Positions 47,046 to 50,335 of a stretch of DNA of 56,678 bases are shown here, piece by piece (positions within the stretch are counted from its first letter, which is position 1; each line of letters opens with the position of its first letter). A model generated the notes under the pieces. The model was not told where the DNA came from. It searched no databases and saw only the letters and a program-made list of their open reading frames with translations. The translations under genes and the position numbers were made by a program. The DNA lies in NCBI GenBank assembly GCA_026416715.1, contig JAOAEQ010000023.1, forward strand, positions 1 to 56,678, read 5' to 3'. Source of the DNA: a bacterium. GTDB lineage: Bacteria; UBP4; UBA4092; JAOAEQ01.

Positions 47046-47266
47046 CCCGAATAAAAGCTTGACACTCCGTTTTGTTACCTTTATAATAGAGTAAACTCCT
47101 ATTAGCAATTATTTCCAACTCTGTCAATAGTTAAGGGTGTCTGGTGGTAAATAACTGGATAGGCTGAACGTTCAGATGGTTAAATCGCCATTCCGTATAT
47201 ATCTAATTTTCCCGGATTAAGTTATTCGGTAAAGAACGGATGCATAATGGATACAAGGGAAACCGA
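47046..47266 (+). repeat. duplicated promoter-bearing element, copy 1
   Basis: Homologous to 48055-48276. By hand alignment the first ~120 nt differ at about eight positions, and the rest is more divergent, with most differences being transitions. The element starts with a consensus promoter, then GAGTAAACTC, a conserved stretch GTTAAGGGTGTCTGGTGG, a palindrome CTGAACGTTCAG (47164-47175) and GATGG...CCAT. It ends 42 bp before the ATC-hydrolase-like gene and has the same direction. It may be a structured leader RNA. Confidence 0.75.
47059..47087 (+). promoter_or_regulatory. consensus sigma-70 promoter in copy 1
   Basis: TTGACA (47059-47064), 17-nt spacer, TATAAT (47082-47087): a perfect match to the consensus in both boxes and spacing. 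It points toward the gene at 47308, giving a leader of about 215 nt. Confidence 0.75.
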
Positions 47267-47307
47267 TTTTTTTAGGAACGATTAATAGCCCTTGATATTT
47301 CATAAAA

Positions 47308-47907
47308 ATGGATCGAATTTATTTTATGGAAGCGGTGGAATTATTAAAAGATGAAATAGGATTAGTTTCAGCGTATATGATCGGTATTCCAGCAACGATA
47401 GCGGCGAACAAACTGAACTTCTGCGTATCAGCAGATGCTGACCAAGCGGAGCAGAATAAAACCGCATTAAAAAATGCGTTTAAACTGGTAGCGCAGATAT
47501 ATCCTCGTCTGCAGAAAAAGTATGGAAAGCAAGTTGCAGATGATATTATGGGGAAAGTCTTAGTTAAAGTCGCTACTGAATTCTTTCAAGGATTCAAGCC
47601 AATCGGACCCGACGATAAATTCCCAGCGTTTGCGAAAATCTATAAAGATTTCGAAAGCCATAATCTGGTGTTCGACGTTATTGAAGAAACAGATACCAAA
47701 CTCGACGTTATCGTTCGTCGGTGCCTGATATATGAAGCGATGAAAGATCTAGGAATGGGTGATTTGATTCCACATCTCTGTCAGTTCGCATTCACCTATT
47801 TCCAATCATATCATCCGAATATAAAATATCTAAAAGATAAAATGATTGGAAGCGGTGACGCTTGTTGTCATGAAACGTTTCTGTGGAAAGAAGAAGAACT
47901 CAATTAA
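47308..47907 (+). CDS. L-2-amino-thiazoline-4-carboxylic acid hydrolase-like protein
   Basis: 199 residues, cytoplasmic. The layout matches the ATC hydrolase family: a helical N-terminal half, then KVLVKVATEFFQGFKP, DVIVRRCLIYEAMKDLGMGDLIPHLCQFAFTYF, and the end GSGDACCHETFLW. In family members that last segment reads roughly GDxxCxFxF, and the Cys is functionally important. The Pseudomonas enzyme opens a thiazoline ring on the way to L-cysteine. Many homologues have other, unknown roles, so the activity is only suggested. The gene is bracketed by direct repeats (47046 and 48055) and preceded by a consensus promoter, with no obvious Shine-Dalgarno. Confidence 0.72.
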   Translation: MDRIYFMEAVELLKDEIGLVSAYMIGIPATIAANKLNFCVSADADQAEQNKTALKNAFKLVAQIYPRLQKKYGKQVADDIMGKVLVKVATEFFQGFKPIGPDDKFPAFAKIYKDFESHNLVFDVIEETDTKLDVIVRRCLIYEAMKDLGMGDLIPHLCQFAFTYFQSYHPNIKYLKDKMIGSGDACCHETFLWKEEELN

Positions 47908-48054
47908 AATAACCATCCACAGAACCGGTTGGCTCATCGGCACGGTATAAAACAAGGAGAATTCGCGCTACGCAAACCAAACTAGGCACGATCGCATAGA
48001 ACGTGGGGATGAGAAATCGCATGGATAAAAACATTGCGTTTCCTCTATATTCAG

Positions 48055-48276
48055 CCCCGACAAAAGCTTGACACTCCATTTTGTTACCTTTATAATAGAG
48101 TAAACTCCTATCAGCAATTATTTCCAAATTCTATCAATAGTTAAGGGTGTCTGGTGGTAAATAACCGGATAGGTTGAACGTTCGGATGGTCGGGCCGCCA
48201 TCCCATATATATCTAATTCTATCGGAGTAGGTTGAATAGCAAAGGACGGATGTATAATGGGTGCGAAAAATAACCG
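48055..48276 (+). repeat. duplicated promoter-bearing element, copy 2
   Basis: Second copy of the 47046 element, same orientation. Here the palindrome reads TTGAACGTTCGG, whose outer pairs become U-G, and the next stem is GGATGG / CCATCC, perfect in this copy. A 90-codon minus-strand ORF crosses it but has stops in the other copy. Downstream lie ~170 bp without features and then the TPR gene. The region 47908-48054 before it shows nothing I can assign. Confidence 0.75.
48068..48096 (+). promoter_or_regulatory. consensus sigma-70 promoter in copy 2
   Basis: TTGACA (48068-48073), 17-nt spacer, TATAAT (48091-48096). Both boxes are identical to copy 1; the spacer differs by one base. It points toward the TPR gene, with a leader of about 350 nt. 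Confidence 0.75.
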
Positions 48277-48448
48277 ACCACTTACTCGAGAATTTTTAAG
48301 AGACAAGACCTTCCTAATTTGTTCATCCGTTTTTCTGTCTTTCATTTTACATTCTGAAATCAACAGCTCCAATTCGTTTTTTATAAACACCTTTTATTAG
48401 CAGGTGATGCACTAAATTCTTACTTTTTTAATTTCAGGAGGGAACATT

Positions 48449-48859
48449 ATGAGTTTTTGGAATACGCTATTCGGCAAACCTAAAACTGCTAAATACTATA
48501 ATAAACAAGCAATTAAATTGATTCAAAAGGGTAGGTTCGATGAAGCGATTAGTATGTGCAATGAAGCGATAGCACTTGATGCGGGATATACCGATGCGTA
48601 TAACAATCGCGGGTTAGCATATGCGCAAAAGAATGAATATGACCGCGCAATTGCAGATTTTAACAAAGCGCTAGAAATCAATCCGCGGTTAGGCGAAACG
48701 TATTATAATAAAGCGCTAACCTGCGAGAAAGCTGGCCGAACGTTAGATGCAATTGAAGGATATAAAAAAGCAATTGAATTCGGAGCTAAACAGAATCCGT
48801 TTATCCTCGACCGAGCGAAACAGCATATCGCAGATTTAGAAAAAGAACTCAAGCAGTAA
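48449..48859 (+). CDS. tetratricopeptide-repeat protein
   Basis: 136 residues, start after TCAGGAGGGAACATT. Three TPR units span about 17-120: AIKLIQKGRFDEAISMCNEAIALDAGYTDAYNNRG, LAYAQKNEYDRAIADFNKALEINPRLGETYYNKA and LTCEKAGRTLDAIEGYKKAIEFG. TPRs form helical scaffolds that bind other proteins. There is no signal peptide, so it is cytoplasmic, and the partner is unknown. It could be transcribed from the promoter in the repeat at 48055. Confidence 0.9.
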   Translation: MSFWNTLFGKPKTAKYYNKQAIKLIQKGRFDEAISMCNEAIALDAGYTDAYNNRGLAYAQKNEYDRAIADFNKALEINPRLGETYYNKALTCEKAGRTLDAIEGYKKAIEFGAKQNPFILDRAKQHIADLEKELKQ

Positions 48860-48922: not shown

Positions 48923-50335
48923 TTATCTATCTGCCGGTTCGGTATGGACGGTAATCTGTGCTATTTGAGGGAACTCAGATTTTATCCTCTGTTCGATAGC
49001 GGTTGAAATATCATGGACTTCGGGTAAGGATAGTTCCGGTTGCAAGCAACAATGCAGCGATACCTTATACTTCCCTTCAGAAGTCTGAACATTGACTTCA
49101 TGGCAATCAAGCACACCAGGGATCATTTCTGCAGTAGCTTTTATCTTTCCTACTAACCGTTGGGTTTGACCGGTAACATCTTTTGCCGGGACAGAATTAT
49201 GGTTTGCGATTTCAAGATGTGTCGTAACCTGTGCAACATTCGGTATCTCCTGTTTAATTCTATCTTCAAGCTGATGAGATAACTCGTGGGCATGCTCAAA
49301 TTTAGTTTCTGGCGCTAATTCTAAATGGAGGTTAATCGATAACTTCCGTCCGATTTCGCTTATTTGAACATTATGGATAGTCAATGATAGGGAATTCGCA
49401 ATCAATCGGATTTTATCTATGGTTTGTTCCTGGCTGGTAGCTTGCGGATCAGCGTGGATAACGATATCCGCATTCGGAATGAGTTTCGCGAGTTTCTGTT
49501 CAACTTCATTAACCACAGTATGCGCCTGTTCGAACGGAACTGTGCGATTAATTGCTAGCCGCATATCGATAAACGTTTGTGCGCCAGCTTTCCGAACTCG
49601 CAAATCACTGAACGACTCCACGCCGGAAACCGACCGAATCACATCTTCTATCTGTAACATCGTCGCTTCACCTGGTGCGGTATCGAGGAGAACGTCAATC
49701 GTCCGTTTTCCTAGGCGGACACTAACAATCAACACCCAGAGAGCAACGATAAGTGCTGCTATTGGGTCAGCCCAGTGCCAATCGAAAGCAAAAACGAATA
49801 TGAGACCGACGATAACTACCACCGTACTCCAAATATCACTTAGGAAATGCAATGCGTCTGCTTCCAATGCTTGACTATCATATTTTTTCGCTGCACGAGA
49901 TAATGCTACCGCCCGTGATATTGTTATTGCTAAAGAAACCAGCATCGTACTTAACGCGACCCAACCTACATCAATCTGCGTCGGTTTAATCAACCGCTGG
50001 ATAGCTTCAGAAATAATCCAGAAGCAGGTGATAAGCAAGAGTGCGGTTTCGATTAATGCGGAGAAACTTTCGATTTTATGATGGCCATAAAGATGTCGAC
50101 GGTCAGCAGGTTTATCGGAGAAGCGAACCGCAAAATAGGTGATCAGTGCTGCACCAAGGTCAAGCGCAGAATGTGCCGCTTCAGAGATGATACCTAAACT
50201 GCCGGTGATAATCCCGATAACTATTTTAAGAATTGTGAGAAATCCTGCTGCCCAAACGGAAGATAAAGCAACCTGCGCCTTCTCTCGGCTATCGGAATTA
50301 AGATCCTGATGTAGATTGTTATGCTGGTGAGCCAA
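48923..50335 (-). CDS. cation diffusion facilitator transporter with three C-terminal domains
   Basis: 470 residues against about 300 in the family. Six membrane spans (about 20-205) carry the two HxxxD zinc-site halves, HSALD in span 2 and HFLSD in span 5, plus the LYGHHKIE loop. This fits Zn2+/Mn2+/Fe2+ export. The C-terminus then holds three tandem ferredoxin-like CTD modules (about 215-290, 300-378, 388-468), each with the pattern V-x-x-C/F-H/S-x-L-x-V-R and F-E/P-x-A-H-x-x-x. Normal CDF proteins have one, which dimerises and senses metal. The start is a TTG with no Shine-Dalgarno, directly abutting a tandem TTAAAT repeat; no ATG is available upstream of the first span. Confidence 0.88.
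   Translation of the reverse strand: MAHQHNNLHQDLNSDSREKAQVALSSVWAAGFLTILKIVIGIITGSLGIISEAAHSALDLGAALITYFAVRFSDKPADRRHLYGHHKIESFSALIETALLLITCFWIISEAIQRLIKPTQIDVGWVALSTMLVSLAITISRAVALSRAAKKYDSQALEADALHFLSDIWSTVVVIVGLIFVFAFDWHWADPIAALIVALWVLIVSVRLGKRTIDVLLDTAPGEATMLQIEDVIRSVSGVESFSDLRVRKAGAQTFIDMRLAINRTVPFEQAHTVVNEVEQKLAKLIPNADIVIHADPQATSQEQTIDKIRLIANSLSLTIHNVQISEIGRKLSINLHLELAPETKFEHAHELSHQLEDRIKQEIPNVAQVTTHLEIANHNSVPAKDVTGQTQRLVGKIKATAEMIPGVLDCHEVNVQTSEGKYKVSLHCCLQPELSLPEVHDISTAIEQRIKSEFPQIAQITVHTEPADR

Follow-up and report, generated by a model that had tools for sequence, protein, structure and literature searches.

The window, 56,678 nt of bacterial DNA, holds two similar stretches of DNA about 1 kb apart, each behind a strong promoter-like sequence. 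In a preliminary description they were seen as fitting a new small RNA or cis-regulatory leader, or a small mobile element. The locus raises the question of what was duplicated and whether the two copies could still perform the same task.

Extent and origin of the duplicated module

Direct copies were located on the + strand at 47046-47266 and 48055-48276, with a spacing of 1009-1010 nt. Clear similarity runs through 47053-47250 and 48062-48260 (86% identity over ~198 nt, E 3.8e-61), and each copy carries a promoter that agrees with the consensus at 12 of 12 positions (Table 1), which bears out the duplicated same-strand element of ~220 bp reported in the preliminary description. That description had also called the differences mostly transitions, and transitions account for 23 of the 27 substitutions (47053-47250). 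The similar stretch starts with AAAAGCTTGACA and ends with ATAATGG, which contains the start codon; past this motif a weaker likeness between the copies continues for some 15 nt. Differences are spread unevenly: the promoter and 5′ leader have few of them, and from the P2 loop of the aptamer onward there are many. The common origin of the copies is established from their sequence likeness, and the element reads as a module of promoter (with activity predicted), leader, nhaA-I aptamer, ribosome-binding site and start codon. A free small RNA, as had been suggested, is a less favoured reading, since the start codon forms the end of the conserved module.

Further copies were sought in the genome and beyond it, as had been proposed. 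No third copy was found in the genome itself (2.96 Mb, 64 contigs), and 59 other genomes likewise gave no clear copy; the sole match outside the own genome (60 genomes searched, own included) was a borderline one of 36 nt in the promoter part. A small mobile element with an outward promoter, also put forward in the preliminary description, would fit similar 220-bp copies lying 1 kb apart with unrelated genes behind them, but only the two local copies are present in the genome, searches of other genomes, of plasmids and of phages gave no clear match, terminal inverted repeats are lacking, and the boundaries match those of a promoter-to-start-codon unit. We consider this origin extremely improbable. 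Assignment to MITE-like elements was rejected, given that dispersed copies and terminal inverted repeats are both lacking.

Table 1. Positions of the features discussed, in window coordinates
Feature	Position	Strand	Basis or remark
Promoter, copy 1 (TTGACA-N17-TATAAT)	47059-47087	+	12/12 consensus
Aptamer, copy 1, degenerate nhaA-I paralogue (P2 loop TAAATC for CGGGCC)	47135-47193	+	15.2/22.5 bits; 86% identity to copy 2
12-codon ORF at the counterpart of the copy 2 start codon (MDTRETDFFRND)	47247-47285	+	Read from sequence; probably a remnant
ATC_hydrolase (PF14196) family gene after copy 1	47308-47907	+	Pfam 67.5 bits; no clear Shine-Dalgarno
Promoter, copy 2 (TTGACA-N17-TATAAT)	48068-48096	+	12/12 consensus
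Aptamer, copy 2, nhaA-I (RF03057)	48145-48203	+	Rfam 44.5 bits; independent model 48.3 bits
P1 of copy 2	48149-48155/48164-48170	+	
P2 of copy 2	48184-48190/48197-48203	+	
P2 loop of copy 2 (CGGGCC)	48191-48196	+	
Putative expression platform, CCCATATATATCT pairing with GGATGTATAATGGG	48202-48262	+	RNA folding, model only
Shine-Dalgarno-like AAAGGA (48241-48246) and ATG (48257-48259)	48241-48259	+	Sequence; 3′ end of duplicated module
Putative ORF of 47 codons with its start inside the module, first candidate target of copy 2	48257-48400	+	Sequence
TPR protein gene, second candidate target of copy 2	48449-48859	+	Pfam TPR; own GGAGG Shine-Dalgarno
Cation-efflux gene	48923-50335	Opposite to copies	

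The aptamers of the two copies

Copy 2 was matched by the Rfam nhaA-I RNA (RF03057) at 44.5 bits, above the gathering cut-off of 37, and no other Rfam family was reported at this site. A covariance model trained on 17 aptamers, all drawn from genomes other than this one (12 in number), scored copy 2 at 48.3 bits. Covariation in P1 and P2 is strong in the 17-aptamer alignment (score 0.670 vs 0.294 when shuffled, 0/500). When aligned with these 17, copy 2 was found to hold all of the family invariants, namely GGGU, AGG and the P2 loop GUCGGGCCGC. Copy 2 belongs to the nhaA-I (Li+-I/Na+-II) class, in which Li+-sensing riboswitches (Li+-I) are accompanied by rare Na+-sensing variants, Na+-II (PMC9646797). 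It adds a member to an established riboswitch class and is not a new kind of RNA, so the structured cis-regulatory leader proposed behind a strong promoter was right in kind and wrong in its novelty. The ligand of copy 2 would be Li+ or Na+, and ion binding and expression control are predicted. All family-invariant nucleotides are retained in copy 2, which points to selection that still acts on it or to a recent origin.

In the preliminary description it went unnoticed that copy 1 has lost the conserved P2 loop, which is what chiefly sets the two copies apart. In Rfam searches copy 1 was not matched by nhaA-I at E ≤ 1 or at E ≤ 10, and thus fell short of the gathering cut-off; the 17-aptamer model scored it at 15.2 bits. 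When the P2 loop was masked in the model, copy 1 was the second-best place in the window at 22.5 bits, with the next place at 12.3 bits. The two aptamers differ at nine positions, all by transitions. Five of these are consecutive and fall in the P2 loop, where TAAATC stands in copy 1 and CGGGCC in copy 2 (5/6 bases changed); CGGGC, invariant in 17/17 family members, has thereby become UAAAU. A run of at least five would be expected by chance with a probability of ~0.005. At three of the remaining four differences the family prefers the base of copy 2, and at 47156 the T of copy 1 is the commoner one.

Changes between the copies had previously been described as preserving pairing. This applies to the second P2 pair of copy 1, which is G.U, and fails for the outermost pair, which is lost (A.C). 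The "palindromes" CTGAACGTTCAG and TTGAACGTTCGG probably form no hairpin of their own because they overlap the linker together with the base(s) at which P2 of the aptamer begins.

Double G-to-A mutants of the conserved loop show weaker Li+ binding and response (PMC9646797), and by analogy the loop change of copy 1 resembles these laboratory mutations that weaken Li+-I switches. Alternatively, copy 1 could be a functional variant whose rebuilt loop, UAAAUC, recognizes a different ligand, forming a pair with the canonical Li+/Na+ sensor 1 kb away. Such a variant would be consistent with the clustering of changes in the putative binding loop, with the retention of the promoter, P1 and most of P2, and with the specificity variants known in the nhaA-I class (Na+-II; PMC9646797). 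Given that loop invariance is partly inherent in searching with the Rfam model, the loop-blind model was also run over 386 genomes. The canonical loop was present in every strong match; among the weak matches, those that were read showed loops of unrelated sequence and were not recognized by Rfam, so that this search yielded canonical aptamers and background instead of a family of loop variants. As the basal pair of P2 is also lost in copy 1 and the published loop changes reduce the response, we regard a functional variant as very unlikely. Among the loop-blind matches, one of 22.9 bits in another genome (L034, G090:C7:171247-171303, - strand) has a good GGGT-P1-AGG half and an unrelated P2, and is probably due to chance.

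Copy 1 is probably a relic, ligand-blind or nearly so, because the invariant loop nucleotides are lost and because its aptamer is uncoupled from the start codon in the folding models described below.

Predicted switching and candidate targets

When copy 2 was folded without constraint, pairing of CCCATATATATCT with GGATGTATAATGGG covered the start codons. When P1 and P2 were forced, the unpaired probability of the ATG at 48257 increased from 0.22 to 0.68 in a transcript to 48330 and from 0.21 to 0.51 in a transcript to 48290, and was unchanged in the shortest transcript (to 48262); the gain in exposure therefore varies with transcript length. The Shine-Dalgarno stretch of copy 2 was no more open with the forced aptamer. 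For the equivalent ATG of copy 1, the unpaired probability in the longest transcript was 0.15 without and 0.16 with the forced aptamer. Stability of the whole leader was not greater than that of shuffled sequence for either copy (z -0.16 and 0.60). In the minimum-energy fold, the loop UGGUCGG of copy 2 pairs with a downstream CCGACCA, a feature read from two sequences only.

Neither copy is followed by a terminator-like site on the + strand, and a translational reading of copy 2 was therefore adopted. In many of the other aptamers that were read, a downstream terminator uses the 3′ arm of P2 (P2 GCCGCC with GGCGGC-TTTT). The published Li+-I class activates expression, mostly, in its authors' opinion, through release of the ribosome-binding site (PMC9646797). 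Copy 2 probably acts as an ON switch at the level of translation. Binding of an alkali-metal ion would lead to formation of P1 and P2, upon which the downstream stem over the start codon would open and translation would start at ATG 48257. Expression of the TPR gene farther downstream may rise too. The strong promoter of copy 1 may still transcribe the ATC-hydrolase-like gene.

The candidate targets predicted from gene order (the 47-codon ORF, the TPR gene and the ATC-hydrolase-like gene) are unusual. The 47-codon ORF has no Pfam match, and the ATC-hydrolase-like protein has no relative in the other genome of the same class. Neither copy has a transporter gene behind it on its own strand; the protein of the neighbouring cation-efflux gene had five distant matches (40-49% identity). 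NhaA (PF06965) was rejected as a target since it is absent from the genome, which encodes three CPA-type Na+/H+ exchangers (PF00999) on other contigs. An inverted repeat (47873-47887/47916-47930) spans the end of the ATC-hydrolase-like gene and is possibly a terminator or attenuator.

In other genomes, the aptamers precede or adjoin genes for Na+/H+ antiporters, and also OmpA-family, glycosyltransferase and unknown genes; a non-transporter target is therefore not exceptional. Two of these aptamers (L022 in G239 and L019 in G318) stand in front of genes for OmpA-family (Pal-like) lipoproteins, which might connect them with the cell envelope. Two others (L009 in G227 and L021 in G087) precede related small membrane proteins of about 114 aa; the one in G227 has no Pfam match, and two adjacent paralogues follow the aptamer.

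Both copies could instead be relics whose original transporter genes were lost, leaving the modules as constitutive promoters for the genes that follow. The very short ORFs at the module start codons, the missing NhaA and the lack of a same-strand transporter downstream would all be in line with this, but copy 2 has kept every family-invariant nucleotide, and we think it rather unlikely that both are relics. The likely reading is that a promoter-riboswitch-start-codon module was duplicated locally, that copy 2 is an intact ON switch, and that copy 1 has drifted and is probably ligand-blind.

An nhaA-I riboswitch is thereby added in a genome without NhaA, with one other genome of its class among those compared. 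The natural pair, in which one copy is without the conserved ion-response loop, offers a comparison for testing how RNAs of this class bind lithium or sodium, and may also show how duplicated riboswitches degenerate or acquire another specificity. The candidate targets might lead to new parts of the alkali-metal response.

Comparison with known systems

Like nhaA-I/Li+-I RNAs (RF03057), copy 2 consists of GGGU, P1, AGG, a linker and P2 with the loop CGGGCC, in a layout consistent with an ON switch at the ribosome-binding site. Unlike the usual members, it is not followed by NhaA or another transporter, an association that is common and not strictly defining; copy 1 differs from the class by its missing loop. 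The rare Na+-II variants of nhaA-I share the same aptamer architecture and are associated with genes of unknown function, but their published members have an intrinsic terminator, of which none was seen here; their discriminating nucleotide is C54 in D. propionicus. The Na+-I class (DUF1646 motif) has a similar P1/P2 layout and an alkali-metal ligand (PMC9337991, PMC9646797), whereas Rfam places copy 2 in nhaA-I.

Two aptamers on one contig and strand were also found in four of the 12 other genomes (G087, G088, G184 and G355), where the distance between them ranges from 197 nt to about 23 kb, and tandem Li+-I riboswitches have been reported by White et al. (PMC9646797); local duplication is thus not unusual. 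The tandem pair in G088 (G088:C235:6526-6784, - strand; L010/L020) consists of nearly identical nhaA-I aptamers 197 nt apart, with a terminator-like GCGGCC-T run after each and then an unknown membrane protein of 180 aa. As in tandem Li+-I riboswitches, the locus described here has two aptamers of the same class close together on one strand; what is special is that each copy has its own promoter, that a gene lies in between, and that the conserved loop of one, degenerate copy has been erased.
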